This document shows, piece by piece, positions 6,531 to 19,416 of a stretch of DNA of 20,886 nucleotides (position 1 is its first letter; each line of letters starts with the position of its first letter). Source of the stretch: a virus. Under the pieces are notes generated by a model, which had not been told where the DNA came from, did no database searches, and saw nothing but the letters and a program-made list of their open reading frames with translations. The stretch spans positions 1 through 20,886 of IMG/VR virus record IMGVR_UViG_3300018084_000020. The stretch is one strand, 5' to 3'. The position numbers and the translations under genes are program-made.

Positions 6531-6595
6531 AGACTCGTCAGCACCGGTACCGTACCGGCGGACCAGCAGCGTCTCCCGACGGGCCGGTTTCGTCT
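6531..6595 (-). ncRNA. Type II hammerhead ribozyme 1 (before the DUF2786 gene)
   Basis: Reads 5' to 3' on the minus strand: AGAC, GAAA, stem III (ACCGGC / GCUGGU around an inner CGUC-GGGA-GACG hairpin), C17 at 6561, stem I (CGCCGG / CCGGUG, 7-nt loop), core CUGACGA, GUCU. Stem II is AGAC/GUCU, a compensated change from the GGAC/GUCC of four other copies. Predicted cleavage is between 6561 and 6560, leaving an mRNA that starts with stem I about 45 nt upstream of the DUF2786 start. The ribosome binding site (6525-6530) abuts stem II. The upstream gene stops only 10 nt before. Confidence 0.88.
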
Positions 6596-7428: not shown

Positions 7429-7481
7429 GGACTCCTCAGCAGCACCATCCAGCGCCGGACGCCCCGAGAGGCGTTTCGTCC
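7429..7481 (-). ncRNA. Type II hammerhead ribozyme 2
   Basis: Shortest copy, 53 nt. On the minus strand: GGAC, GAAA, stem III (ACGCC / GGCGU, 6-nt loop), C17 at 7458, stem I (CGGCGC / GUGCUG, loop UGGAUG), core CUGAGGA, GUCC. Stem II is GGAC/GUCC. Predicted cleavage is between 7458 and 7457. AGGAGG (7421-7426) for the 156-aa gene follows within 3 nt of stem II. A 12-bp hairpin (7494-7530) precedes it. Confidence 0.86.
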
Positions 7482-7544: not shown

Positions 7545-8012
7545 TTACTTCTTGGCAGCCGGGGTCCGTCGGGTGCGACGGGCCGGAGCCTTCTTGACCG
7601 GCTCGGGAGCGGCCTCGGTGGCCTCCTCCGCGCCGTTCTCGTCCTTGGCCTCACCCTCGGGCTCGGCGTCCGCCTTCGGGGTCTCGGTGGGCTCCTCGGG
7701 CTTCGCCTCGTCCGCCGCCGCCTCTTCGCCCTTCAGCTTGGCGAGCTCGGCCTCCAGCTTGGCGAGCCGCTTGGCCTTGGCCTCGTCCGCCTTCTTGGCG
7801 GCGTTGGCCTTGCGGTCCTTCAGAGCGGCCTGGTTCTCGTCGCTCTTCTGGAAGTCCATCCGCATGGTCGTGACCAGCTGGACGGTCTTGAGGTCGACGT
7901 CGATGCCCGTCTTCTCCTTCAGCCAGGCGGTGAAGGCGACGTGCAGGTCGGTCGGCTCGGCCGCAGCGCGCTCGGCGAAGGTCTTGGCGTTGGTGGTGGT
8001 GTTCTCGGACAT
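7545..8012 (-). CDS. Paralog 2 of the charged-tail protein family, 155 aa
   Basis: The shared domain spans residues about 20-70 (PTDLHVAFTAWLKEKTGIDV, then DLKTVQLVTTMRMDFQKSDENQ). It continues into a coiled-coil-like helix (AKRLAKLEAELAKLKGEE), an acidic Pro/Glu/Ala-rich linker and a basic end (PARRTRRTPAAKK). Compared with paralog 1 the tail is less repetitive and has one basic cluster. It is the first gene after leader RNA 1 and ribozyme 3, so it heads operon 1. The start at 8012 has AGGAGG 7 nt upstream. The abundance of expression signals suggests a highly made protein; a nucleoid-like or RNA-binding role is inferred only from composition. Confidence 0.85.
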   Translation of the reverse strand: MSENTTTNAKTFAERAAAEPTDLHVAFTAWLKEKTGIDVDLKTVQLVTTMRMDFQKSDENQAALKDRKANAAKKADEAKAKRLAKLEAELAKLKGEEAAADEAKPEEPTETPKADAEPEGEAKDENGAEEATEAAPEPVKKAPARRTRRTPAAKK

Positions 8013-8026
8013 GGTGTTCCTCCTTG

Positions 8027-8090
8027 GGACTCCTCAGCACCGGCTCTTACCGGCGTACGAGCAGCGCTTCCCAGCGGGCTCGTTTCGTCC
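8027..8090 (-). ncRNA. Type II hammerhead ribozyme 3
   Basis: On the minus strand: GGAC, GAAA, stem III (ACGAGC / GCUCGU around CGCU-GGGA-AGCG), H17 = A at 8056 (a permitted GUA site), stem I (CGCCGG / CCGGUG, loop UAAGAG), core CUGAGGA, GUCC. It joins leader RNA 1 to the paralog 2 ribosome binding site. Predicted cleavage between 8056 and 8055 would release the leader from the mRNA. Confidence 0.87.
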
Positions 8091-8261
8091 TTTGTGTTGT
8101 TTGTGTTGTTTGCCGGCATCTCCTCATCGGTGAGGGTTGCGGTTGCCGGCAGACCGTCCACCTTTCGACTTCCTGGCCAGAGGTGCCCCGAGCGGGGTGT
8201 CTCACTTGACCCAGGCTTGAAGAGGTGGAGTTCGTGCTCGCTAGCAGCTTTCAGGACCATC

Positions 8262-8523
8262 CGGATGTTCTCTCCCCTGTGGTTCCCGCAGTGGGCCTTC
8301 AGGAGTCCGTCCCCGGACAGTACAGTCGCTTCGCTCGCATCTACCGGTTTTGTGGAGTCCGGTTCCTGTCTAGAGTCAGAGGGCCACCGAAGGTTCTCAG
8401 TGGAGCTCGATCGCAGCCGTCTCTCTTGGCTGTCCTGCCTGGTTCGCGGTCTCCGGGCCAGCGCCTCGACCCTCGGCCAGACCGGCCATTCGGGGAGTTC
8501 CGCTTCCTGCCCTCTCGCTTACA
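8262..8523 (-). ncRNA. Leader RNA 1: conserved structured untranslated leader of operon 1
   Basis: Minus-strand leader from the predicted start near 8523. It shares colinear blocks with leader RNA 2 (12292-12547) at similar distances from the start: 8444-8500 with 12467-12522, CTCCACAA(GA)AAAC at 8345-8357 with 12383-12397, CGGGGACGGAC at 8305-8315 with 12344-12354, and the 13-mer GAGAGAACATCCG at 8262-8274 with 12292-12304. In the first block a GGCC-5 nt-GGCC hairpin is matched by CGGC-7 nt-GCCG, and both keep GGUC...GACC, so structure is kept while bases differ. The remaining 8091-8261 before ribozyme 3 is less conserved. An open frame starting at 8260 runs through the ribozyme; I do not call it. 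Confidence 0.62.
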
Positions 8524-8655
8524 GGTAGAACTATGCGCCAGATCCCGCCGGAAGGCAACCCCTCATCTACCTGGTCATTCGCGAAGAACGAGCAGGCGAG
8601 ATGAGGTGCAGATCCGTTGAAAGTTTTTTGAACTTTTTCTGAAACGGCAGGTAGA
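8522..8655. repeat. CAGGTAGA repeats, AT-rich patch and inverted repeats in the operon 1 control region
   Basis: CAGGTAGA occurs at 8522-8529 and 8648-8655, with its reverse at 8566-8573. CCTCATCT (8561-8568) and AGATGAGG (8599-8606) form an 8-bp inverted repeat. An A/T-rich stretch with T-runs lies at about 8618-8641, unlike the GC-rich surroundings. The same motif occurs three times in the operon 2 control region. Candidate protein-binding sites, perhaps a repressor operator or origin. Confidence 0.5.
8530..8558 (-). promoter_or_regulatory. Operon 1 promoter
   Basis: Minus strand: -35 TTGCCT (8553-8558), 17-bp spacer, -10 CATAGT (8530-8535). CTTACAGGTAG (8518-8528) covers the predicted start. 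Same layout as the operon 2 promoter at 12554-12582. Confidence 0.72.
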
Positions 8656-10040: not shown

Positions 10041-10096
10041 GGACTCGTCAGGAGCGCCATCCAGCGCCCGACCCGGCTGGCTGCCGGGTTTCGTCC
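10041..10096 (-). ncRNA. Type II hammerhead ribozyme 4
   Basis: On the minus strand: GGAC, GAAA, stem III (ACCCGGC / GCCGGGU, loop AGCCA), C17 at 10070, stem I (GGGCGC / GCGCUC, loop UGGAUG), core CUGACGA, GUCC. Stem III is a perfect 7-bp helix. Cleavage is predicted between 10070 and 10069, 42 nt upstream of the 125-aa gene. The preceding tiny membrane protein gene stops only 7 nt before, so a ribosome ending there would cover the 5' arm of stem II. Confidence 0.9.
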
Positions 10097-10823: not shown

Positions 10824-11138
10824 CTAGATCGGGTCTTGCTTGTCGAGGTAGCGCCGGAGCGCCGCTCGCACCGACTGGGGCTTGACGCCGTAGGAGCGCG
10901 CTAGGCGACCTACGGAGTGGCAGTCGCCGCCTTCCTTGAGGAAGGCACCGTAGAGCCCTGCACCGGCCAGCGGGAGCCTCTTGTAGGTGCGAGGCGCTCG
11001 TCCGGTCGCACGGGCGACCACCTTGCGGATCGTGCTCTCGTTGACGCCGAAGTGCCTCGCCGTCCGCGAGTTGTTCTGGTCGTGCTCGCGCCACGCCTTG
11101 ACGACGTCGTCGTCGCTCGGCAGCGGGATCAGACCCAT
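10824..11138 (-). CDS. Protein with two helix-turn-helix motifs, 104 aa
   Basis: Two similar homeodomain-like helix-turn-helix units can be read: residues about 10-43 (VVKAWREHDQNNSRTARHFG, then VNESTIRKVVARATG) and about 68-99 (GAFLKEGGDCHSVGRLARSY, then GVKPQSVRAALRRYL). Both keep the A-R-x-x-G-V-x-x-x-(T/S)-(I/V)-R core typical of Trp-repressor/transposase-type HTH domains. Between them is a short basic linker (RAPRTYKRLP). A DNA-binding regulator is likely, and it is a candidate to bind one of the palindromic sites in this window, but that link is inference. The start at 11138 has AGGAGG, directly after ribozyme 5. Confidence 0.82.
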   Translation of the reverse strand: MGLIPLPSDDDVVKAWREHDQNNSRTARHFGVNESTIRKVVARATGRAPRTYKRLPLAGAGLYGAFLKEGGDCHSVGRLARSYGVKPQSVRAALRRYLDKQDPI

Positions 11139-11152
11139 GACATCCTCCTGTG

Positions 11153-11222
11153 GGACTCGTCAGTACGGCCACTCAGCCGCAGACCGACCGGCCTCCTCTC
11201 GGGAGACCGGCCGGTTTCGTCC
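11153..11222 (-). ncRNA. Type II hammerhead ribozyme 5
   Basis: Longest copy, 70 nt. On the minus strand: GGAC, GAAA, a 14-bp stem III (two G-U pairs, loop CGAGA), C17 at 11182, stem I (UGCGGC / GCCGUA, loop UGAGUG), core CUGACGA, GUCC. Pair 1.1 of stem I is U-A here but C-G or G-C in the others, which is real covariation. The upstream gene (paralog 3) stops 9 nt before. Confidence 0.9.
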
Positions 11223-11231
11223 TGGGGTTTG

Positions 11232-11831
11232 TCAGTTGTCCAGCGCGCCGCAGCAGGGCTTGGCGTCGTAGGCCATGTAGTTGTCCTCCAGGCTGGACTC
11301 GCCGGAGTCGATCATGTCCGAGTAGATCAGGTGGGTCAGCTCGGTGTGGCTGCTGATGTTCGCGGTCTCCTTGGAGAAGCCCATCTTCGCCGTCTTCTTC
11401 TTGGCGTCGGCGCAACCGAACTTGTGGATCTCCGGCTCGTCGCCACCGTAGATGATGGTCAGCTTGACCGGCTCGCTGGGCTCGGCCTTGACCGGGGCCT
11501 CGACGACCGGGGCGTCCTCCTGCTTGGGCTCCTCGGCCTTGCCGGCATCTCCCTTGAGCTCGGCCAGCTTGGCCTCCAGCTTGGCCTTCTTGCGAGCCGC
11601 GCTCGCCTTCTTGGCGTCCGCCGCCTTGGCCTTACGGTCGGCCAGGTTCTTCTGGTTCTCCGGGCTGGCCTGGAAGTCCATCCGCAGGACCGAGACGAGC
11701 TGGACCGTCTTCAGGTCGACCTTGACGCCGGTCTGGATGAAGATCCAGTGGGCGAAGTCCTCGTGCAGCTGGGTGGGAGCCTTGGCGGCGATCGCTTCGA
11801 AGTTCTTCGGGGTCTTGGAGTTGGCAGCCAT
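11232..11831 (-). CDS. Paralog 3 of the charged-tail family with a Cys/His C-terminal domain, 199 aa
   Basis: Residues about 18-68 are the shared domain (PTQLHEDFAHWIFIQTGVKV, then DLKTVQLVSVLRMDFQASPENQ). A Lys/Ala-rich helix (AKLEAKLAELKG) and an acidic linker follow, as in paralog 2. In place of a basic end it carries an extra module at 122-199: KLTIIYGG, HKFGC (His136, Cys140) and PCCGA (Cys193, Cys194), reminiscent of the YH-C-CxxC module of 8765-9184. The start at 11831 has AGGAGG. It has its own promoter (11875-11903) although it lies inside operon 2. The fusion suggests the shared domain is recombined with different effectors. Confidence 0.85.
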   Translation of the reverse strand: MAANSKTPKNFEAIAAKAPTQLHEDFAHWIFIQTGVKVDLKTVQLVSVLRMDFQASPENQKNLADRKAKAADAKKASAARKKAKLEAKLAELKGDAGKAEEPKQEDAPVVEAPVKAEPSEPVKLTIIYGGDEPEIHKFGCADAKKKTAKMGFSKETANISSHTELTHLIYSDMIDSGESSLEDNYMAYDAKPCCGALDN

Positions 11832-11862: not shown

Positions 11863-11903
11863 CTTACAGTAACTACTATACTCTATGTCGAGCCGTTTGG
11901 CTA
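11863..11903 (-). promoter_or_regulatory. Promoter of paralog 3
   Basis: Minus strand: -35 TAGCCA (11898-11903), 17-bp spacer, -10 TATAGT (11875-11880), with palindrome-like CTTACAGTAAC (11863-11873) on the predicted start near 11868. Confidence 0.75.
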
Positions 11904-11930
11904 CTGTGGAGTGGAACTTGTTGCCTGCAA

Positions 11931-11955
11931 GCCGGGGAGCTGGGGGCTCCCCGGC
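11931..11955 (-). terminator. Hairpin after 11967-12149
   Basis: Perfect 10-bp stem GCCGGGGAGC / GCTCCCCGGC with a 5-nt loop, 11 nt past the stop. It separates the 60-aa gene from the paralog 3 promoter. No U-tract. Confidence 0.65.
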
Positions 11956-11966
11956 TGCCGTCCGCC

Positions 11967-12149
11967 TCAGCGCTGGATCTCGTCCGGGCCAGGCGTGCCG
12001 AGCGGGTTCTCGACCTGGATCAGGTCGCGCCCGTCAGCCTCGGTGGGGAGCGGCCGGTTGGTGATCTGGCCGCTCGTGGTCGGCGTTGCCTTGGGTCCGT
12101 TCCCGTTGGGCGGGTTGCTCGCCTGCGGGGTACGTCGGGGCAGTGCCAT
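11967..12149 (-). CDS. Small Pro-rich protein, 60 aa
   Basis: Disordered-looking, Pro/Asn/Thr-rich protein (MALPRRTPQASNPPNGNGPK..., ending ENPLGTPGPDEIQR). First gene after leader RNA 2 and ribozyme 6, so it heads operon 2 as paralog 2 heads operon 1. The start at 12149 has GGAGG. Unrecognised; no cysteine, membrane segment or domain. Confidence 0.7.
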   Translation of the reverse strand: MALPRRTPQASNPPNGNGPKATPTTSGQITNRPLPTEADGRDLIQVENPLGTPGPDEIQR

Positions 12150-12160
12150 GGTTCCTCCAG

Positions 12161-12225
12161 AGACTCCTCAGGACCGCCGTTCAGCGGCCGACCCTCAGGG
12201 CGTCTCCGCCCCTCGGGTTTCGTCT
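12161..12225 (-). ncRNA. Type II hammerhead ribozyme 6
   Basis: On the minus strand: AGAC, GAAA, stem III (ACCC / GGGU, 3x3 internal loop GAG/UGA, GGGCG-GAGA-CGCCC), C17 at 12190, stem I (GGCCGC / GCGGUC, loop UGAACG), core CUGAGGA, GUCU. Like ribozyme 1 it has the compensated AGAC/GUCU stem II. It joins leader RNA 2 to the first gene of operon 2. Confidence 0.87.
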
Positions 12226-12291
12226 TGTGTGTGCACGGGGCCGTCTCTCGGCCTCTCGTGTTCGCTCCGCCCTCGCGCCTTGCCAACCTCT

Positions 12292-12547
12292 CGGATGTTC
12301 TCTCGTGGGGTGGCTGGTTCCGTGTCTCCCTAGCCAGTCCCGCGTCCGTCCCCGAGGAGTTGCGCGCTACTACCTTCGCTGCCGTTTTCTTGTGGAGGGC
12401 CGGTGCCCTGTCTCCGACGCTGCATTTACTGCTTCCGACCTGTCGCCTGGCCGCCTTGCGGGTTGCTCGCGGTCTTCGGGTGGAGCCTCGACCGTCGGCT
12501 GGAGTCGCCGTCCCGGGAGTTTCGCTCGCCGCCCTCGTTCGCTTACA
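12292..12547 (-). ncRNA. Leader RNA 2: conserved structured untranslated leader of operon 2
   Basis: Minus-strand leader, colinear with leader RNA 1 in at least four blocks (see 8262-8523). The GGUC...GACC stem and the small hairpin before it are kept with different bases. No open frame with a ribosome binding site is convincing within it. The segment 12226-12291 links it to ribozyme 6 and is shorter than the matching link in operon 1. Tested by eye against tRNA, RNase P and tmRNA patterns with no match. Confidence 0.62.
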
Positions 12548-12678
12548 GGTAGAACTTTACTCGAGACTGAGGACCTCCGCTACCCTCATGCCACCTGCCG
12601 AAACGATGCGAACCCTCAGGTAGACGCGTCGCGATCTTTTTGCAGAAATCTTGAAGAACTTCTGAACCCTCAGGTAGA
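12546..12678. repeat. CAGGTAGA repeats in the operon 2 control region
   Basis: CAGGTAGA at 12546-12553, 12617-12624 and 12671-12678. The last lies in CCTCAG-GTAGAT-CTGAGG, a 6-bp inverted repeat. An A/T-richer stretch (about 12636-12665) lies between. Same arrangement as at 8522-8655. The whole gap 12583-12700 holds no gene. Confidence 0.5.
12554..12582 (-). promoter_or_regulatory. Operon 2 promoter
   Basis: Minus strand: -35 TAGCGG (12577-12582), 17-bp spacer, -10 TAAAGT (12554-12559), followed by CTTACAGGTAG (12542-12552) over the predicted start, identical in that part to the operon 1 promoter. Confidence 0.7.
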
Positions 12679-12700
12679 TCTGAGGTACGGGCGTCTACGG

Positions 12701-12727
12701 CGATTCACCGCGCCTCAGGGCGAATCG
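12701..12727 (-). terminator. Hairpin at the end of the JAMM gene
   Basis: Stem CGATTCGCC / GGTGAATCG (9 pairs, one G-U) with a 9-nt loop. The stop codon of 12715-13128 lies in the loop. Same stem as at 8707-8762. Confidence 0.6.
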
Positions 12728-13128
12728 GGCGAAACTACCTCTGTCGACTCCTCCTCGGCGACCCCGGCGACCACTCGCCAGCACCGGATCTCCTCGGACG
12801 CGAGGCTCAGGATGACGTACCGCATGCCGGCATGCACGGCCGTGGCCACGTCAACGCCAGACGGCTCAGCAGACGTGGCGGTGTGCGAGTGCACGATCGC
12901 AACCGGGTCCTCGCCCCGGATGTCCATCTCGCGGTACAAGGCGAGCACCTCGACCGGATCGGTCTCGTAGAACCGGCGCGCGTCGGCTGCGGCGTTGGTC
13001 AGCGGCTCGAAGCGGAGCGGGAAGTCGCGCCCCATCGGGGCGATCAGCATGCCGCACATCTCAGCCGGAGCCTGCTCGCGGGCGTGCCTGAACATCTGGT
13101 CTCGGAGGCTTGTCGTGATCGTAAGCAT
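12715..13128 (-). CDS. JAMM/MPN+ metalloprotease-fold protein, 137 aa
   Basis: Member of the JAB1/MPN/Mov34 (JAMM) metallopeptidase fold. All zinc-site residues are present: Glu23 (AEMCG), then His80-Ser-His82, Ser90 and Asp93, which fits E...HxHx7Sx2D exactly. The length is that of the minimal single-domain bacterial and phage members. Such enzymes cleave isopeptide or ubiquitin-like fusions or, in phages, are found in tail proteins linked to NlpC/P60 domains; here the domain stands alone in an early region. No ubiquitin-like, E1-like or E2-like partner is seen in the window. The start at 13128 has a poor ribosome binding site and no clear promoter, so it is less certain. Confidence 0.86.
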   Translation of the reverse strand: MLTITTSLRDQMFRHAREQAPAEMCGMLIAPMGRDFPLRFEPLTNAAADARRFYETDPVEVLALYREMDIRGEDPVAIVHSHTATSAEPSGVDVATAVHAGMRYVILSLASEEIRCWRVVAGVAEEESTEVVSPDSP

Positions 13129-13248
13129 GCCGGCAAGCCTACGCGTCGTTCTCCGGGCTCCGGGCGGGCTCGTCGGCCCAACGGGGCGCGCTCGGGGCGC
13201 GGAGCCGGGAGACGGCCAGCGAGGGACGCGCCGGACCCAGAACGCAGA

Positions 13249-13281
13249 GGAGCCCCGCTCCCTGGTTCGGGGCGGGGCTCC
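13249..13281 (-). terminator. Hairpin after 13298-13651
   Basis: Perfect 10-bp stem GGAGCCCCGC / GCGGGGCTCC with an inner CCC/GGG pair. The remaining gap 13129-13248 holds nothing I can support. Confidence 0.62.
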
Positions 13282-13297
13282 GGGTCCTGCGGGTTGG

Positions 13298-13651
13298 TCA
13301 GCGGCAGCGGTTCAGCGCCTTGTAGGCCGCCTGCATCGCCTTGCGCTCGGCGGCCTCACGGGCGTTCTGGACCGGGCTGGTCGAGCCGCCGACGTTGCCC
13401 TCCATGAGCTGCTCGGCCGCGTCCTCCAGCCACTCCTCGATCGCCCGCATGCCGGCACGGTTCCAGCGGGTCTGCAGCTGCGCGGTCTGGTGGGCTGCGG
13501 CCTGCGCCTCGATCAGCGCCTCCATCGTGCCCGGCAGGACCATCTCGCCAGCGGCGAATGCCTCGGTGAAGCGGGCCTGGACCTTGAGCAGGGTCTGCGC
13601 GGCGGCCTGAGCGATGCGGGCGACGGTCTCGGCGGTCTTCGTGCTGTCCAT
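13298..13651 (-). CDS. Helical Ala-rich protein, 117 aa
   Basis: Almost wholly alpha-helical by composition (ETVARIAQAAAQTLLKVQAR, ALIEAQAAAHQTAQLQTRW, EEWLEDAAEQLMEG, then AREAAERKAMQAAYKALN), ending NRCR. Probably a helical bundle or coiled coil. The start at 13651 has AGGAGG, with a strong promoter upstream (13692-13720) and a hairpin downstream, so it is a single-gene unit. Function unknown. Confidence 0.8.
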   Translation of the reverse strand: MDSTKTAETVARIAQAAAQTLLKVQARFTEAFAAGEMVLPGTMEALIEAQAAAHQTAQLQTRWNRAGMRAIEEWLEDAAEQLMEGNVGGSTSPVQNAREAAERKAMQAAYKALNRCR

Positions 13652-13679
13652 CGTGTCCTCCTGGGGACTTCGTGTTTCC

Positions 13680-13730
13680 CTTACAACAAGAACTATACTC
13701 CAGTGCAGAGCATATGGCTACTCTGCACTG
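13680..13730 (-). promoter_or_regulatory. Promoter of 13298-13651 with perfect inverted repeat
   Basis: Minus strand: -35 TAGCCA (13715-13720), 17-bp spacer, -10 TATAGT (13692-13697), CTTACAACAAG (13680-13690) near the start. A perfect 10-bp inverted repeat, CAGTGCAGAG / CTCTGCACTG (13701-13710, 13721-13730), brackets the -35 box. Confidence 0.78.
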
Positions 13731-13738
13731 AAGATTCT

Positions 13739-13879
13739 TTACACGTCCTCCTGGCCGCCGTCCTCGGCGCGCTCCCGGCGCTCCAGGACGACCCAGTTCG
13801 GGGTGCGCCCGATCTCCCGGCGCGGTGCGCGCTTCGGGCTCTTGCGCCACTCGTTGCGGAGCTGCTGCTTGCGGGCCAT
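13739..13879 (-). CDS. Small very basic protein, 46 aa
   Basis: MARKQQLRNEWRKSPKRAPR followed by REIGRTPNWVVLERRERAED: highly basic first half, acidic end. GAGGAGG precedes the ATG at 13879. It fills the space between the 14314-13958 gene and the promoter at 13692-13720. Composition suggests RNA or DNA binding, but no domain is recognised. Confidence 0.68.
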   Translation of the reverse strand: MARKQQLRNEWRKSPKRAPRREIGRTPNWVVLERRERAEDGGQEDV

Positions 13880-13912
13880 GCCGTCCTCCTCGTTGGGCTT
13901 CTCACTGCCTCA

Positions 13913-13940
13913 GGCCCGCACCCCGTGAGGAGTGCGGGCC
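13913..13940 (-). terminator. Hairpin after 13958-14314
   Basis: Perfect 9-bp stem GGCCCGCAC / GTGCGGGCC, 10-nt loop, 17 nt past the stop. Confidence 0.6.
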
Positions 13941-13957
13941 GGTCGGCCGGTTGTCGC

Positions 13958-14314
13958 TTACGCCTCAACCTCGGGCGCAGGCGGGGTGTACCCGGTCTTC
14001 TCGATCGCCGCGACCAGCATCGCCCGCAGCGCGGGGACGTCCGGGTCGTCCGAGTTGACCACGTCGTCGTGCAGCTCCCGCGCGGTCGCCTCCAGGTCCG
14101 TCACCAGCTCCATGTTCTCGGGGACCATCGCCGCGTACATGTCGCAGCTGCAGTACGAGTGGCTCCCGCACCCGCATCCCGTCGCCTTCAGCGAGAACAG
14201 CTCGCCGGTCTCGTCCTTGACGACCAGCATCGCGACGCCCGCAAGGTCGTACCGCTCCTGCGTGATGTCCACGTCGCCGAGGACCGTGTAGCCGGGGATC
14301 GTGTAGTCGCTCAT
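13958..14314 (-). CDS. Hypothetical protein with a Cys cluster, 118 aa
   Basis: Strand-rich N-terminus (YTIPGYTVLGDVDITQERYD, VAMLVVKDETGELFSLKA) running into a tight cluster of four cysteines, Cys47, Cys49, Cys55 and Cys57 (TGCGCGSHSYCSC), likely a metal site. A helix follows (LVTDLEATARELHDDV), and the end is acidic and Pro-rich. Own promoter upstream (14358-14386) and a hairpin downstream. No ribosome binding site as strong as its neighbours (GGAGGC). Function unknown. Confidence 0.78.
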   Translation of the reverse strand: MSDYTIPGYTVLGDVDITQERYDLAGVAMLVVKDETGELFSLKATGCGCGSHSYCSCDMYAAMVPENMELVTDLEATARELHDDVVNSDDPDVPALRAMLVAAIEKTGYTPPAPEVEA

Positions 14315-14345
14315 GTCTGCCTCCAGGGGCTCCGTCGTGGTCTCG

Positions 14346-14386
14346 CTTACAGTAACTACTATACCCCAACTGCAGTCGGGGCGCTA
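14346..14386 (-). promoter_or_regulatory. Promoter of 13958-14314
   Basis: Minus strand: -35 TAGCGC (14381-14386), 17 bp, -10 TATAGT (14358-14363), then CTTACAGTAAC (14346-14356). Upstream AATTGCA pairs with TGCAGTT in the spacer (one G-U). Confidence 0.78.
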
Positions 14387-14419
14387 CCCTTTTGTGCAAT
14401 TTGTTTGCCGGCATGGGCA

Positions 14420-14447
14420 GAGCCCCGCCCGGTTGCGGACGGGGCTC
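14420..14447 (-). terminator. Hairpin after 14459-14773
   Basis: GAGCCCCG / CGGGGCTC stem with an inner CCG-GTTG-CGG hairpin, 11 nt past the stop. Confidence 0.6.
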
Positions 14448-14458
14448 GCCGGGTTGTG

Positions 14459-14773
14459 CTAGCTGCCGGGCGTCACCGGCACGATCGCCTTGGTTCCGCG
14501 GAACTCGCCCGCGTCGACGTACGAGCCGAGCTCGGTCTGCATGAGCGTTGCCAGCCACGTGGCGTCCATGTGGTCGGGCACCTCGTAGAAGCCGTCCAGC
14601 GCGACCTGCTCGTCGATCTTGCTGAGCAGGCTGTCGCGCTGGTCGACCAGCATGTCGAGGGTGTTCTCGCGGAGCAGGGTCGGCACGACCGGGTTGAGCC
14701 GGTTGAGGTCGTAGGACAGCACCGACACCTGGATCGCGACCTGGTGCTTCTCGTGCTCGATGGAGTGGACCAT
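14459..14773 (-). CDS. Hypothetical protein, 104 aa
   Basis: Mixed helix/strand protein: HQVAIQVSVLSYDLNRLNPV, TLLRENTLDMLVDQRDSLLS, DEQVALDGFYEVPDHMDATW. No cysteines, no membrane segment. Start at 14773 with GGAGGCC upstream. Monocistronic with its own promoter (14826-14854) and hairpin. Unrecognised. Confidence 0.77.
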   Translation of the reverse strand: MVHSIEHEKHQVAIQVSVLSYDLNRLNPVVPTLLRENTLDMLVDQRDSLLSKIDEQVALDGFYEVPDHMDATWLATLMQTELGSYVDAGEFRGTKAIVPVTPGS

Positions 14774-14813
14774 GGTGGCCTCCTGGGCCTTGGGGCCGAC
14801 CCTCGCGGTCGGC

Positions 14814-14854
14814 CTTACAACAAGAACTATACTCCAGTCTGGAGGTTCGCGCTA
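14814..14854 (-). promoter_or_regulatory. Promoter of 14459-14773
   Basis: Minus strand: -35 TAGCGC (14849-14854), 17 bp, -10 TATAGT (14826-14831), CTTACAACAAG (14814-14824) near the start. An imperfect inverted repeat (9 of 11 pairs) brackets the -35 box. Confidence 0.78.
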
Positions 14855-14875
14855 CCCCTTCTCGAGATTGGTTGT

Positions 14876-14890
14876 ATGGGCGTCTGCCGA
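14876..14890. repeat. 15-bp direct repeat, copy 1
   Basis: ATGGGCGTCTGCCGA, repeated exactly at 16247-16261. Both copies lie 21-32 bp upstream of a -35 box of the same promoter family. Confidence 0.5.
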
Positions 14891-14924
14891 GAGGGCCGCT
14901 CCCCGATGGTAGGAAGCGGCCCTC
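14891..14924 (-). terminator. Hairpin after 14937-15647
   Basis: Perfect 10-bp stem GAGGGCCGCT / AGCGGCCCTC, 14-nt loop, 12 nt past the stop. Confidence 0.62.
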
Positions 14925-14936
14925 GTGCGTTGCCGA

Positions 14937-15647
14937 TCAGCAGGAGACGCAGACGCGGCGCTCCTTGGTGGTGCACATGCCGGGGTAGACCGGCCCGTCG
15001 CGGTGGATCGGCTCGGACACGATCTTGGTGTTGGCGTAGGTCGGGGTGCCGCCGCAGTCTCCGCAGATGGCCGTCATGTACGTCTCGTCGAAGCGGTAGT
15101 CGACCGGGACCGAGCCGGGGGCGTGCAGCTCCGAGGCGGTCGTTCCCTGGGTCGCTGCCGGCACGCCGGGGATCTGGACGACGTAGCTGAACCGGGGTGC
15201 CCAGGCGGTCGCCTCGACATGGTCCACGACCTTGGTGACGACCACCGGACCGGCCGGGACGCAGTAGCCGTGCGGGCGCTGGCCGGGGAGGAAGTACAGC
15301 TCGTCGCCGACCTGGTGCTCGGCACCCTCGACCTTGACCTGCTGGTCCTGGACGGTGACGACCGGGGCGGGCTCGGGGGTCGCGGCGACGATGGCCTCGA
15401 TGGCGACCAGAGCGGCCTTCTCGCAGGTCTTGCAGACCTTGCGTCCACCGGTGATCCGGGCGGCGTCCAGGGCGTCCTGCAGGCTGTCGTACGAGGCACC
15501 CTGGGCCAGTCGGCCACGGGTCAGGACGCCACAGGCGTTCTCCGCGTAGTAGTCGACGACCCCGCCCTGCTCGTTGCCGGCACTCTGGGTCTTGCAGGCG
15601 ACCCCGGCGATGTGGTTCGTGGCTCGGTTGTAGCGGATGCTGAACAT
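14937..15647 (-). CDS. Cys-rich multi-module protein, 236 aa
   Basis: Nine cysteines in metal-site arrangements: Cys18; Cys39 with Cys72/Cys75 (VCKTC); Cys195/Cys198 (ICGDCGG); Cys225 with Cys233/Cys236 (CVSC at the very end). The 39-75 segment has a SLQDALDAA helix between the ligands, like the module of 8765-9184. A middle region (ELYFLPGQRPHGYCVPAGPV, VVTKVVDHVEATAW) reads as a small beta barrel, and the last 40 residues form a second zinc module. The start at 15647 has GGAGGC; the longer frame passes through the promoter. Nucleic-acid or protein binding is plausible; no named family recognised. Confidence 0.8.
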   Translation of the reverse strand: MFSIRYNRATNHIAGVACKTQSAGNEQGGVVDYYAENACGVLTRGRLAQGASYDSLQDALDAARITGGRKVCKTCEKAALVAIEAIVAATPEPAPVVTVQDQQVKVEGAEHQVGDELYFLPGQRPHGYCVPAGPVVVTKVVDHVEATAWAPRFSYVVQIPGVPAATQGTTASELHAPGSVPVDYRFDETYMTAICGDCGGTPTYANTKIVSEPIHRDGPVYPGMCTTKERRVCVSC

Positions 15648-15677
15648 GGTTGCCTCCGAGGGCTTGTCGTCGTCTCG

Positions 15678-15718
15678 CTTACAGTAAGAACTATACTCCA
15701 GTTGCGAGGTCGGCGCTA
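15678..15718 (-). promoter_or_regulatory. Promoter of 14937-15647
   Basis: Minus strand: -35 TAGCGC (15713-15718), 17 bp, -10 TATAGT (15690-15695), perfect palindrome CTTACAGTAAG (15678-15688) centred on the predicted start. AGTTGCG and CGCAACT bracket the -35 box. Confidence 0.8.
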
Positions 15719-15790
15719 CCCCTTTCCGCAACTTTGTTGAATCGGATTTGCCGGCCTCTGCAGCTGGCCAGAGAGGGCGGCATGTAGTGT

Positions 15791-15799
15791 AAAGCCTGC
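15791..15799. repeat. AAAGCCTGC element, copy 1 of 3
   Basis: Core AAAGCCTGC preceded by TGTAG within 10 bp; also at 16286-16294 and 17792-17800, each about 50-80 bp upstream of a promoter. The gap 15719-15842 holds no gene that I can support. Confidence 0.4.
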
Positions 15800-15842
15800 G
15801 GGCTCTCGTGCTCTGTGGAGATCGCCATATGCACACGTGCAG

Positions 15843-15875
15843 GAGGCCCGCCCTCCGAAGTGGAGAGCGGGCCTC
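15843..15875 (-). terminator. Hairpin after 15883-16149
   Basis: Stem GAGGCCCGC / GCGGGCCTC with an inner CTCC-GAAGT-GGAG hairpin, 7 nt past the stop. Confidence 0.62.
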
Positions 15876-15882
15876 GCGACCG

Positions 15883-16149
15883 TCAGGCCTCGCCGTCGAA
15901 CTCGACCAGGTGCGCGTAGTCCAGGTCGGTCGCGTCCGGGTCGGCGTCCTCGACCTCGATCATCCGGTAGCCGACCGGGTTGACGTCGTCCGACGCGACC
16001 CAGTAGGCGAAGCATTCGTCCCCGACCGTCTCCAGCACCTCGTGCCAGCGGCCACGGATCCGGCCGGTCGCCTCCAGCGAGCCGTGGAGCTCCATCGTCG
16101 CGCGGACCCGGTTGAGCAGGTCCTCGTTGGTGTTCTCGGCGTCGAACAT
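15883..16149 (-). CDS. Acidic hypothetical protein, 88 aa
   Basis: Helix (NEDLLNRVRATMELHGSLEA), then GRWHEVLETVGDECFAYWVA, NPVGYRMIEVED and an acidic end (ADPDATDLDYAHLVEFDGE). The GxWxExxE...W part resembles residues 26-50 of the gene at 16848-17126 (GPWVEFYEAIPG...FWARLEG), so the two may be distant relatives. Start at 16149 with AGGAGGCC. Own promoter and hairpin. Function unknown. Confidence 0.77.
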   Translation of the reverse strand: MFDAENTNEDLLNRVRATMELHGSLEATGRIRGRWHEVLETVGDECFAYWVASDDVNPVGYRMIEVEDADPDATDLDYAHLVEFDGEA

Positions 16150-16174
16150 CTTGGCCTCCTGGGGCTCTCACTTG

Positions 16175-16215
16175 CTTACGAGAGTAACTATACTCCATGC
16201 CGGCCTGAATGGCTA
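16175..16215 (-). promoter_or_regulatory. Promoter of 15883-16149
   Basis: Minus strand: -35 TAGCCA (16210-16215), 17 bp, -10 TATAGT (16187-16192). The start element here is CTTAC-GAGA-GTAAC (16175-16188), with a longer centre than in the other promoters. Confidence 0.77.
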
Positions 16216-16246
16216 CTCTGCAGCGCATCGGATCTACGGCGTGCAG

Positions 16247-16261
16247 ATGGGCGTCTGCCGA
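16247..16261. repeat. 15-bp direct repeat, copy 2
   Basis: Exact second copy of the 15-mer at 14876-14890. An AAAGCCTGC element lies just beyond it (16286-16294). Confidence 0.5.
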
Positions 16262-16334
16262 ACTGGAGGCTGAGATCTGTAGGTTAAAGCCTGCCGGGCT
16301 CCAGGGCGACTGCAGGCCGGCATGGACAACGGAG

Positions 16335-16363
16335 GGGCGGCCTGCCTGGGTGGGAGGCCGCCC
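16335..16363 (-). terminator. Hairpin after 16371-16610
   Basis: Perfect 8-bp stem GGGCGGCC / GGCCGCCC, 13-nt loop, 7 nt past the stop. Confidence 0.58.
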
Positions 16364-16370
16364 GGTCGAG

Positions 16371-16610
16371 CTAGCTCCAGCTCTCGCCCATCCAGTAGCC
16401 GGTGCCCATCGCGGCCCAGTTGACGCCCCGGTAGCCCTTGGCCTTGGCGGCGTTGGAGAGGTTGACCAGGGAGTCGGCGTTGTTGCGGACCTTGCGGACC
16501 TCCAGGACCTTGCGGTCGTCGCCGTAGCCGGTCTTGGTGGTCGCGGTCGCCCAGCCGTTGCGGCCGACGCGGTACTCGATGCGGATCGCGGGGAGCTGGT
16601 TCTCGGTCAT
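16371..16610 (-). CDS. Hypothetical protein, 79 aa
   Basis: Basic, strand-rich start (LPAIRIEYRVGRNGWATATT) with a helix (NADSLVNLSNAAKAKGY) and a Trp/Gly-rich end (WAAMGTGYWMGESWS). Start at 16610 with GGAGGC. Own promoter and hairpin. No family recognised. Confidence 0.76.
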   Translation of the reverse strand: MTENQLPAIRIEYRVGRNGWATATTKTGYGDDRKVLEVRKVRNNADSLVNLSNAAKAKGYRGVNWAAMGTGYWMGESWS

Positions 16611-16640
16611 GTTTGCCTCCGTGGGCTTCGTGTTCTCTCG

Positions 16641-16681
16641 CTTACAGTAAGAACTATACTCCCTTCTGCAGTCCCGCGCTA
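16641..16681 (-). promoter_or_regulatory. Promoter of 16371-16610
   Basis: Minus strand: -35 TAGCGC (16676-16681), 17 bp, -10 TATAGT (16653-16658), perfect palindrome CTTACAGTAAG (16641-16651). Confidence 0.8.
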
Positions 16682-16739
16682 CCCTTCTCTGCATCTTTCT
16701 TCAAGATCTTTCGCTCAGTGGATTTTGAGCATCAAACGA

Positions 16740-16768
16740 AGCTTACTCCAGATCTCGAGTTCGCGCTA
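16740..16768 (-). promoter_or_regulatory. Decayed copy of the promoter family
   Basis: Minus strand keeps GGGTAGCGC (-35 at 16763-16768), a 17-bp spacer and the flanking GGAG, but the -10 position (16740-16745) reads TAAGCT and the palindrome is gone. No gene lies between it and the intact promoter at 16653-16681. Confidence 0.6.
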
Positions 16769-16811
16769 CCCTACAGTGCAGATTGTTTGCCGGCTTCGGA
16801 CATGCCGGCAA

Positions 16812-17172: not shown

Positions 17173-17201
17173 AGTATACTCCAGTCCGCCCGGAAAGGCA
17201 A
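17173..17201 (-). promoter_or_regulatory. Promoter of 16848-17126
   Basis: Minus strand: -35 TTGCCT (17196-17201), 17-bp spacer, -10 TATACT (17173-17178), flanked by GGAG. No palindrome over the start. It faces away from the plus-strand promoter at 17237-17265. Confidence 0.75.
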
Positions 17202-17236: not shown

Positions 17237-17265
17237 TTGCTTTTTGGGCTGCAGTGGAGTAGAGT
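17237..17265 (+). promoter_or_regulatory. Plus-strand promoter of 17272-17421
   Basis: -35 TTGCTT (17237-17242), 17-bp spacer, -10 TAGAGT (17260-17265). The predicted start (17271-17273) coincides with the ATG at 17272, so the mRNA is probably leaderless. Confidence 0.68.
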
Positions 17266-17271
17266 TCTACT

Positions 17272-17421
17272 ATGGACAACAACGAGAGCAACCCGGACCA
17301 GCCCTCCGACCTGGAGGTCCTCGCCAAGATCGAGGCGGCGACCAACCGCCGACAGGCCGTCATCGACGAGCTGGAGATCCTCTCCCGCCACCTGGCCGAC
17401 CCGGAGGGCAATCCGCTCTAG
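17272..17421 (+). CDS. Small acidic helical protein, 49 aa, probably leaderless
   Basis: Sequence begins MDNNESNPDQPSDLEVLAKI and continues with a helix (EAATNRRQAVIDELEILSRH). No ribosome binding site stands at a normal distance, and the promoter's start point falls on the ATG. First gene of the plus-strand island, divergent from 16848-17126. Function unknown; helix length and charge would suit a small dimeric protein. Confidence 0.68.
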   Translation: MDNNESNPDQPSDLEVLAKIEAATNRRQAVIDELEILSRHLADPEGNPL

Positions 17422-17461: not shown

Positions 17462-17490
17462 TTGCCTTTTGTCGAGATGTGGAGTATAGT
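17462..17490 (+). promoter_or_regulatory. Plus-strand promoter of 17524-17700
   Basis: -35 TTGCCT (17462-17467), 17-bp spacer, -10 TATAGT (17485-17490). A GTAAGG close to the predicted start recalls the start element of the minus-strand promoters. Confidence 0.76.
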
Positions 17491-17523
17491 AGATCTCGTA
17501 AGGCCAACCCCATGGAGGTAAAA

Positions 17524-17700
17524 ATGTCCGCTCCCGTCGTCGTCCCGGTCTCCGCCCTCTACGTCCGCCTGGTGGCCCTGGTGGCCGCTCGTGTGGCCGT
17601 GTGCGCCGACTGCGCCGCGCTGCCCGCTGGACGGTACTGCCTGTCGCATGTCTGCCTGGACTGCGGCCGTGTCGCCCACCCGCACGGCGCTGGCTGCTAG
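17524..17700 (+). CDS. Small Cys-rich zinc-ribbon-like protein, 58 aa
   Basis: Hydrophobic Val/Ala-rich first half (residues 4-26, VVVPVSALYVRLVALVAARV) then a compact metal site: Cys27-x2-Cys30, Cys39, Cys44-x2-Cys47, with His52, His54 and Cys58 at the end. The CADC ... CLDC pair resembles a zinc ribbon. The hydrophobic half may be a membrane helix or protein core. Start at 17524 with GGAGG 7 nt upstream; an in-frame ATG at 17479 overlaps the promoter -10. Function unknown. Confidence 0.74.
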   Translation: MSAPVVVPVSALYVRLVALVAARVAVCADCAALPAGRYCLSHVCLDCGRVAHPHGAGC

Positions 17701-17850: not shown

Positions 17851-17879
17851 TAGCGGAGACGGTGTCGACACGGTAGAGT
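17851..17879 (+). promoter_or_regulatory. Plus-strand promoter of 17925-18119
   Basis: -35 TAGCGG (17851-17856), 17-bp spacer that contains the palindrome GTGTCGACAC, -10 TAGAGT (17874-17879). A GGCGGG-ACGGA-CCCGCC hairpin follows in the leader (17890-17906). Confidence 0.68.
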
Positions 17880-17924
17880 TGTTGTTGTAGGCGGGACGGA
17901 CCCGCCGGTCCCAAGGAGGACGCC

Positions 17925-18119
17925 ATGCAGATCACCCGCGAGATGACCAAGCGCCAGCTGGTCGAGGTCCTGGCCAACCACCACTACACCGGCGACTCGG
18001 TGTCCTGGGCAACCAAGTGGTACGCGACCAACATGACCAAGGCACAGCTGCTGGAGCAGGTCGAGCATGTGCGCGGCGAGCGGACGCAGGACCAGCTGAC
18101 CTACAAGTACGACCACTAG
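17925..18119 (+). CDS. Small basic protein, 64 aa
   Basis: Two related-looking helical segments, EMTKRQLVEVLANHHYTGD and NMTKAQLLEQVEHVRGERTQ, each with MTK(R/A)QL(V/L)E, so it may be an internal duplication; a SAP- or HeH-like DNA-binding role is possible but unproven. AAGGAGG at 7 nt precedes the ATG. The leader carries a short hairpin (17890-17906) that may modulate translation. Unrecognised. Confidence 0.74.
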   Translation: MQITREMTKRQLVEVLANHHYTGDSVSWATKWYATNMTKAQLLEQVEHVRGERTQDQLTYKYDH

Positions 18120-18445: not shown

Positions 18446-18682
18446 TCAGCTGTTGGTCGCAGCCTCGTAGTCCGCAAGGTCCCGGATCACGTCCGCCGTG
18501 CTCCGCTTGCGTCCTGACGGAAGCCTACCTCGTTCTCGTGCCCAGCGCGGCTCGCAGACGCCCGCGAGGATCGGCGGGACCTCCTCCTGGGCCGGTTGGT
18601 CATTGGGCGGCTCGGTCTCTCGGCAGGCGGCCACCGAGGGGCTCGGGCAGTCCCACGGGCACCAGGCGCACTGCCCGTTCAC
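18446..18682 (-). CDS. Small Cys-rich protein, 78 aa, GTG start
   Basis: N-terminal Cys5, Cys8, Cys12 and Cys20 (CAWCPWDCPSPSVAAC) form a likely metal site, followed by a Pro/Glu-rich linker and a basic/helical end (GRLPSGRKRSTADVIRDLAD). The GTG overlaps the stop of the BRO gene as GTGA, so it is translated by coupling. No strong ribosome binding site. Function unknown. Confidence 0.68.
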   Translation of the reverse strand: MNGQCAWCPWDCPSPSVAACRETEPPNDQPAQEEVPPILAGVCEPRWARERGRLPSGRKRSTADVIRDLADYEAATNS

Positions 18683-19416
18683 TTGCCGATCGCCTTAGGC
18701 TTCACGTCCTTGAAGCCGTCGATCGCCTTCGCCTGCATCTTGGGGAACTGGTTGACGATGCGGAACTCGTCAGCCCTCCACGTCACAGCCTTGAACGGCT
18801 TCCTTCCGAACTTCTTCTCGTACATCTTGGACCTTGCAGTGCCGTTGTTGAGTCGGGCGATCCTGTTCTTTCCAACCCCGTTCTGGTCGTCGATCTCTCC
18901 GGACGTCGTCATCACGACGGGGAAGCCGACTGCCTCCGTCAGCAAACCGTGGTTGTGCGCGAATGCACGAATCACGTCGCTCGGGATCCTGCCGCTGCGC
19001 CACGCCTTGTCGATTGCACGATAGCTCGGATCCATCTTCTCAGCGAGCTCCATGACTCGCTTCTGCAGAGCCTCCGCGCTCTCGTATGCCCCGGTCTGTC
19101 GGATAGCCGGAATGACCTCTTCGAAGATCCACCTGCGGAATCCCTCGGCCTTCGGCTTGCGACTCATGAAGACCAGCTGGTACAGGCCGGGCTCGTTCGT
19201 GACGTTGGTTTCCCTGCCTCGACCCAGCGCGTCGGTTACCCTCGTAGTACGAGCGTAACCCTCGTACAGCCTGGCCGCAGCGCCTCCCGCGTTCTCGATA
19301 CCGAGCTCGCGGCACACGTCGTTGACGACCCAGTGGGGCTGCTCGTCGATCCAGATGACGCGCACCTTCTCGCCAGATCCTGGAAACGTGAGAGGTACAA
19401 TCCTGTGCTCGCTCAT
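18679..19416 (-). CDS. BRO-N (Bro family) antirepressor-like protein, 245 aa
   Basis: Residues about 9-115 match the BRO-N domain: RVIWIDEQPHWVVNDVCREL, GIENAGGAAARL, NEPGLYQLVFMSRKPKAEGF and RRWIFEEVIPAIRQTGAY. This domain occurs in phage antirepressors and in baculovirus BRO proteins and binds DNA. A helical segment (SAEALQKRVMELAEKMDPSY) follows, then a C-terminal region (GRIPSDVIRAFAHNHGLLTE, FGRKPFKAVTWRADEFRI) that I do not recognise. The start at 19416 overlaps the primase stop (ATGA) and has AAGGAG. An in-frame longer reading runs back into the primase and is rejected. Likely role: early transcription control. Confidence 0.86.
   Translation of the reverse strand: MSEHRIVPLTFPGSGEKVRVIWIDEQPHWVVNDVCRELGIENAGGAAARLYEGYARTTRVTDALGRGRETNVTNEPGLYQLVFMSRKPKAEGFRRWIFEEVIPAIRQTGAYESAEALQKRVMELAEKMDPSYRAIDKAWRSGRIPSDVIRAFAHNHGLLTEAVGFPVVMTTSGEIDDQNGVGKNRIARLNNGTARSKMYEKKFGRKPFKAVTWRADEFRIVNQFPKMQAKAIDGFKDVKPKAIGK

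Follow-up and report, generated by a model that had tools for sequence, protein, structure and literature searches.

A family of near-identical predicted promoters upstream of small genes in cluster BN-like Streptomyces phages

We analyzed a 20.9-kb phage fragment (IMG/VR virus record IMGVR_UViG_3300018084_000020, positions 1 to 20,886; this whole stretch of 20,886 nt is referred to as the window) and found that near-identical copies of one promoter precede most of the small genes at one end of the genome of a Streptomyces phage. These copies are likely to be the repeated early promoters of a lytic-looking phage of cluster BN, one per gene, that are read by the host polymerase carrying HrdB. 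In the proposed mechanism, RNA polymerase containing HrdB, the main sigma factor of the host, would recognize the promoters through a strong GGAG-TATAGT element, assisted by an A-rich upstream block and tolerating a loose -35 slot (TAGCG, TAGCC, TTTCC or TTGCC). Transcription would start approximately 7-8 nt past the -10 element with an RNA that begins with GUAAG, and each unit would consist of a leader of approximately 30 nt with a strong Shine-Dalgarno sequence, then a short gene whose stop codon is usually followed by a GC-rich hairpin. A preliminary description of the window, made from the sequence alone, had proposed that a palindrome centered on the transcription start is a repressor site; we replace this reading with a rule for promoters that is open to testing in Streptomyces.

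Results

The promoter family in the window and in related phages

The right half of the window is approximately 81-82% identical to eight Streptomyces phages, Wentworth, Dryad, ShakeNBake, PHTowN, Rooney, Gibson, phiRKBJ001 and Lizz, while Yara is a more distant match. The phage phiRKBJ001 has been assigned to cluster BN (PMC8852317). For comparison we used the window together with 13 relatives, namely six complete BN genomes and seven IMG/VR contigs, and orthologous promoters were clustered by the similarity of the proteins, which merges paralogues in some clusters. The seven minus-strand promoters of the preliminary description (11875-11903, 13692-13720, 14358-14386, 14826-14854, 15690-15718, 16187-16215 and 16653-16681) were all reproduced, each with TAGCGC or TAGCCA, exactly 17 bp and TATAGT. 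The pattern TAGC(G/C)-18/19-TATAGT occurs seven times in the window, whereas 200 dinucleotide shuffles contained 0.005 on average, and 86 copies of the family were collected in the comparison set (49 distinct after removal of near-duplicates), which strongly supports the earlier claim of a family of near-identical phage promoters. The same spacing was confirmed for the plus-strand promoters at 17462 (TTGCCT-17-TATAGT) and 17851 (TAGCGG-17-TAGAGT), and additional promoters that had been overlooked are included in Table 1. The pattern used for the collection itself favors part of the apparent conservation, including the bases before the -10; a set of unbiased seeds was defined by TAGC(G/C) and TATAGT only, with the palindrome disregarded, and contains 62 sites, 31 of them distinct after removal of redundancy.

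Within IMG/VR, seven contigs carry at least two copies of a tighter pattern. Five of these encode the BN-like protein that was used to fetch the relatives, the other contigs with repeated matches are 3300003322_000414 and 3300046535_001041, and likeness to BN phages holds wherever it was checked. A looser pattern is found once each in many IMG/VR contigs, in a number that fits chance. The matches in GTDB, single copies on seven contigs from Lactobacillales and other unrelated bacteria, were likewise taken as chance. By these searches, the promoter family appears to be confined to BN-like phages.

Promoter anatomy and gene context

Each promoter is built from an A-rich block, then either GGG-TAGC(G/C) or TTGCCT/TTTCCA, a spacer of 17-18 bp with GGAG at its end, TATAGT, seven variable, pyrimidine-rich bases, and a nearly invariant GTAAG. 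Counted from the first base of the -10, the A-rich block occupies positions -43 to -38, a weak TTGC -36 to -33, GGG -26 to -24, TAGC(G/C) -23 to -19, and (T)GGAG -5 to -1, directly before TATAGT. GTAAG is located exactly 7 bases past the -10 in 49 of the 62 unbiased seeds (27/31 distinct), and a T or a C precedes it in 28 of the 31 distinct promoters. A pyrimidine followed by G at 8 nt past the -10 is a normal start context, and GTAAG is therefore most simply read as the first five bases of the RNA; it probably marks the 5' end, with its G as the predicted +1. The plus-strand promoter at 17237 fits the start predicted from GTAAG within one base, as an ATG lies 6 nt past its -10 (a leaderless start) and opens a gene, 17272-17418, that is conserved as Wentworth gp99.

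A start codon with a Shine-Dalgarno sequence follows GTAAG by less than 70 nt in 83 of the 86 copies, with a median of 30 nt. All nine family sites of Dryad are directly upstream of annotated genes, one of them heading a long leader. For most promoter-headed genes, the preceding gene carries a GC-rich hairpin immediately after its stop codon, and the promoter-headed genes thus look like single-gene transcription units. By these means a probable start and leader have been located for dozens of small BN-phage genes, mostly of unknown function.

An outlying member of the family, at 27841-27892 (plus strand) in Dryad, lies upstream of gene 37 (unknown, 175 aa), where the late genes meet the leftward ones, and is present in all six complete BN genomes. 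In the window, a decayed promoter copy, GGTAGCGCGAACTCGAGATCTGGAGTAAGCTT, at about 16735-16770 on the minus strand is directly upstream of the 16653 promoter, which suggests a duplication as its source.

The palindrome at the start site

The preliminary description had reported the palindrome, or a close variant of it, after each promoter. The exact palindrome CTTACAGTAAG is present at 15678-15688 and 16641-16651 and nowhere else in the record; for the remaining promoters the statement went too far, the common part being GTAAG alone. The bases past the -10, read 5' to 3' on the promoter strand, are tcttactGTAAG at 15690 and 16653, agttactGTAAG at 11875 and 14358, tcttgttGTAAG at 13692 and 14826, tactctcGTAAG at 16187, agatctcGTAAG at 17462, and tgttgttGTAGG at 17851. 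Among the 31 distinct unbiased promoters, the right arm GTAAG is kept in 27 versus 8 for the left arm CTTAC, and the seven-base discriminator preceding GTAAG takes the forms TCTTACT, TACTCTC, AGTTACT, TCTTGTT, AGTTCTC, and others. The left arm varies alone, without a compensating change, even among orthologous promoters. In the 13692 cluster, where TCTTGTT, TCTTACT, AGTTCTC and TACTCTC are all found, one and the same gene has palindromic and non-palindromic versions depending on the phage; the 16187 cluster has six versions of the discriminator and the palindrome in none, and the 16653 cluster keeps TCTTACT in 9 of 9 copies.

That CTTACAGTAAG, centered on +1, serves as a repressor operator for the double-HTH protein (10824-11138) or the BRO protein is in our judgment very improbable. 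In favor of it, the window has two copies of the exact palindrome, roughly a fifth of the distinct promoters carry it, and it is centered near the start. However, an operator would keep both arms or change them together, and the comparison contradicts this: the right arm is conserved and the left is not, its variants are uncompensated, and orthologues within the 13692 cluster disagree. The proposed binders fail to co-occur with the promoters. None of the 13 relatives has a match to BRO. The double-HTH protein is present in 11 of them but absent from the fragment L046 and from the complete genome of Dryad, which yet has nine family promoters; both are thereby excluded as conserved binders. No tyrosine or serine integrase was detected in the six complete BN genomes, which makes a lysogeny operator unlikely, even if some temperate phages do without an integrase. 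Most simply, the palindrome would be a chance meeting of a permitted discriminator, TCTTACT, with the fixed GTAAG. Start-site palindromes can thus come from the juxtaposition of unrelated elements, and are worth checking in relatives. The Bro-N protein of the window (18679-19413, minus strand), found in none of the 13 relatives, was either acquired recently or lost elsewhere.

Polymerase identity and alternative explanations

In HrdB promoters of S. coelicolor, TANNNT is conserved, the -35 is weak or missing, and guanines occupy -13/-14, the latter being a feature of Streptomyces and Mycobacterium promoters (PMC6344877), and their usual -35 is NTGACC (PMC4895711). The BN promoters resemble them in the TANNNT -10, the guanines and the loose -35. 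The collected copies have TATAGT, TAGAGT or TAAAGT, and the CATAGT of the long-leader promoters is one base off TANNNT. The base before the -10 (-13) is G in 49 of 49 distinct copies, and -14 is A in 31 and G in 17, with the reservation that the seed pattern favors these bases. The spacer is 17 bp in all window copies and 17-18 bp in the relatives. The -35 words depart from TTGACA and NTGACC; compared with TTGACA, TAGCGC matches at 2 of 6 positions, and TAGCCA and TTGCCT at 4 of 6 each. Since a weak or absent -35 is common in HrdB promoters, this does not exclude HrdB. Furthermore, the -35 words are exchanged between orthologous promoters: the 14826 promoter has TAGCGC in the window versus TTTCCA in seven orthologues, and the promoter at 12577 has TAGCGG in the window and TTGCCT with CATAGT in orthologues. 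We read this as the work of one polymerase with a tolerant -35 slot.

Several observations weigh against recognition by HrdB alone. TAGC is well kept although TAGCG fits TTGACA or NTGACC poorly, and a plain HrdB promoter would not require such conservation; GTAAG is conserved beyond the needs of a transcription start; and the start at GTAAG is itself a prediction from sequence. The host promoter set has not been described with a TAGC box or a conserved GTAAG start, and has NTGACC when a -35 is present. An alternative that we consider unlikely, while giving it more weight than the other alternatives, is that a phage factor binds the TAGC box, and perhaps also GTAAG, and thereby activates the host polymerase or redirects it, as in a T4 MotA-type middle promoter, in which case the TAGC promoters would form a regulon separate from that of the TTGCCT/TTTCCA promoters. 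The good conservation of TAGC(G/C) in spite of its poor fit to a sigma-70 -35, with A in place of the usual T, would be explained in this way, and such a factor could be encoded by one of the many small unknown BN genes. However, the two -35 classes interchange at orthologous promoters of the same gene, and Dryad lacks the double-HTH protein, which is the best candidate for a DNA-binding factor. A phage sigma factor or WhiB protein as the reader was also considered, and neither sigma region 4 nor WhiB was detected in the six complete BN genomes. Recognition by HrdB polymerase remains our preferred explanation.

Compatible with HrdB promoters is the proposal, in our view quite improbable, that inverted repeats flanking the -35 are a second real element, forming a hairpin either in the DNA or in read-through RNA. 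Such repeats stand on either side of the -35 in several promoters, as at 13698-13733 around the 13692 promoter, and some arms co-vary between relatives; in the 16187 group the arm pairs are GGGGTGGAGG/CCTCCACCCC, CCGGCTGGAGG/CCTCCAGCCGG, and CGGCCTCCAGG/CCTGGAGGCCG. Arm complementarity is 5.34 within promoters versus 4.40 for swapped arms (sd 0.17; reached in 0 of 500 permutations). With one promoter per gene cluster, however, the difference is marginal (4.95 versus 4.37, reached by 4.7% of swaps), the repeat is strong in just 11 of the 49 distinct promoters, and template-switch mutation could yield such arms without any function. We therefore retained the repeats as a property of one or two lineages and not as a family-wide element. 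They were also rejected as terminators, most upstream genes having their own GC-rich hairpin right after the stop codon, with the exception at 13739.

Comparison with known systems

In the Streptomyces phage phiC31, as in the BN phages, a long, near-identical, promoter-like word is repeated upstream of early genes. The word CCGGGTTGCC, mostly followed by GACTnCCTTAC, is found in 7 early intergenic regions of phiC31; we take these repeats to be the phage early promoters, and a separate palindrome, CCTACTCACGTGAGTAGG, to be the repressor site. The phiC31 early region has neither TATAGT nor TAGC followed by a -10, and the BN promoters, unrelated in sequence, were rejected as members of the phiC31 family. 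The BN phages also show no counterpart to the repressor gene, the integrase and the truly palindromic conserved repeat of phiC31. In cluster K mycobacteriophages, as in BN phages, a short repeat precedes many small genes of an actinobacterial phage, and about half of these start-associated sequences (SAS/ESAS) have imperfect inverted repeats around a variable spacer (PMC3203893). However, SAS (GGGATAGGAGCCC) is located at translation starts, whereas the BN repeat is a promoter approximately 30 nt upstream with another sequence. Cluster O mycobacteriophages likewise have many repeats, no integrase, and several SigA-like promoters, but their 17-bp repeats are true dyads that mostly lie away from promoters (PMC4351075), in contrast to the asymmetric conserved element of BN phages. 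A literature search with little access to subscription journals found no paper on BN-phage promoters. In kind these promoters are ordinary, though as a family they are new; the neighboring hammerhead arrays are the more unusual feature.

Table 1. Predicted promoters, hammerhead candidates and conserved leaders in the window (lower case, bases between the -10 and GTAAG; +1 predicted)
Feature	Position	Strand	Elements	Associated gene or remarks
Promoter	11863..11903	-	-35 TAGCCA 11898-11903; -10 TATAGT 11875-11880; GTAAG (predicted +1 to +5) 11863-11867	gene 11232-11831
Promoter	13680..13720	-	TAGCCA-17-TATAGT, tcttgtt, GTAAG 13680-13684	gene 13298-13651
Promoter	14346..14386	-	TAGCGC-17-TATAGT, agttact, GTAAG 14346-14350	gene 13958-14314
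Promoter	14814..14854	-	TAGCGC-17-TATAGT, tcttgtt, GTAAG	gene 14459-14773
Promoter	15678..15718	-	TAGCGC-17-TATAGT, tcttact, GTAAG; exact palindrome 15678-15688	gene start near 15650
Promoter	16175..16215	-	TAGCCA-17-TATAGT, tactctc, GTAAG	gene 15883-16149
Promoter	16641..16681	-	TAGCGC-17-TATAGT, tcttact, GTAAG; exact palindrome 16641-16651	gene from near 16611 to 16371
Promoter	17462..17502	+	TTGCCT-17-TATAGT, agatctc, GTAAG 17498-17502	small gene 17524-17700
Divergent family member	17851..17891	+	TAGCGG-17-TAGAGT, tgttgtt, GTAGG	gene 17925-18119
Family promoter, previously overlooked	8518..8558	-	TTGCCT-17-CATAGT, tctacct, GTAAG	heads ~500-nt leader before gene 7545-8012
Family promoter, previously overlooked	12542..12582	-	TAGCGG-17-TAAAGT, tctacct, GTAAG	heads ~390-nt leader before gene 11967-12149
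Related promoter, previously overlooked	17173..17201	-	TTGCCT-17-TATACT, GGAG before -10, without GTAAG	
Related promoter, previously overlooked	17237-17265 (to 17274 with start)	+	TTGCTT-17-TAGAGT	gene 17272-17418
Type-II hammerhead candidate	6531-6595	-		ends just before Shine-Dalgarno
Type-II hammerhead candidate	7429-7481	-		ends just before Shine-Dalgarno
Type-II hammerhead candidate	8027-8090	-		ends just before Shine-Dalgarno
Type-II hammerhead candidate	10041-10096	-		ends just before Shine-Dalgarno
Type-II hammerhead candidate	11153-11222	-		ends just before Shine-Dalgarno
Type-II hammerhead candidate	12161-12225	-		ends just before Shine-Dalgarno; precedes gene 11967-12149
Conserved noncoding leader, ~390 nt	12150-12541	-	89% mean column identity; 17 pairs changed on both sides	ends in hammerhead candidate
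Conserved noncoding leader, ~500 nt	8013-8517	-	89% mean column identity; 15 pairs changed on both sides	ends in hammerhead candidate

Hammerhead ribozyme candidates and long leaders

A descriptor of the type-II hammerhead (open stem II, GAAA, stem III closed by UH, stem I, CUGANGA) is matched 6 times in the window, in none of 30 mononucleotide shuffles, and 82 times in the whole set, with 4-9 candidates per genome or contig in all 13 relatives. The cleavage triplet is GTC in 75 and GTA in 7 of the 82, though the descriptor demanded just T-H and not the G, and a Shine-Dalgarno sequence with a start codon follows 8-18 nt downstream of every candidate. Two of the six window candidates match the Rfam type-II model RF02276 below its gathering score (best 32.9 versus 37 bits, E 0.0026), a score that no sequence reached in the window or across 102 kb from relatives. 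We regard them as candidate self-cleaving type-II ribozymes, predicted to cut upstream of the Shine-Dalgarno sequence. Natural type-II hammerheads have been described, as has a related hammerhead located 13 nt upstream of a helicase gene in a phage (PMC3088659); the same restricted literature search found no paper on hammerhead arrays in Streptomyces phages.

No window gene has both a promoter and a hammerhead candidate within 130 nt; several genes without the promoter carry a hammerhead candidate, and several have neither. The two long noncoding leaders share approximately 85 nt at their 5' ends, and both terminate in a hammerhead candidate. Neither matches an Rfam family at threshold, and their RNA folding z-scores are unremarkable (-0.5 and -0.7), so that the case for them rests on conservation and compensatory pairs. 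BN phages may give many small early genes their own mRNA 5' end by two interchangeable devices, a promoter starting at GTAAG or a type-II hammerhead cutting just before the Shine-Dalgarno sequence, with some genes having both, joined by a long structured leader; we consider the chances of this proposal to be even. Ribozyme arrays before ribosome-binding sites may explain the promoterless genes, and they offer a natural test of the role of hammerheads in phages.

Repeats of GAACCCTCAGGTAGA at 12610 and 12664 (within 12560-12722 of the window), and in relatives an inverted repeat (CTACC..GGTAG) that precedes the long-leader promoters, are a possible regulator site. Three paralogues of one protein family without a Pfam match are encoded on the minus strand at 1308-1910, 7545-8012 and 11232-11831; they are approximately 40-50% identical, and most BN phages have three copies.

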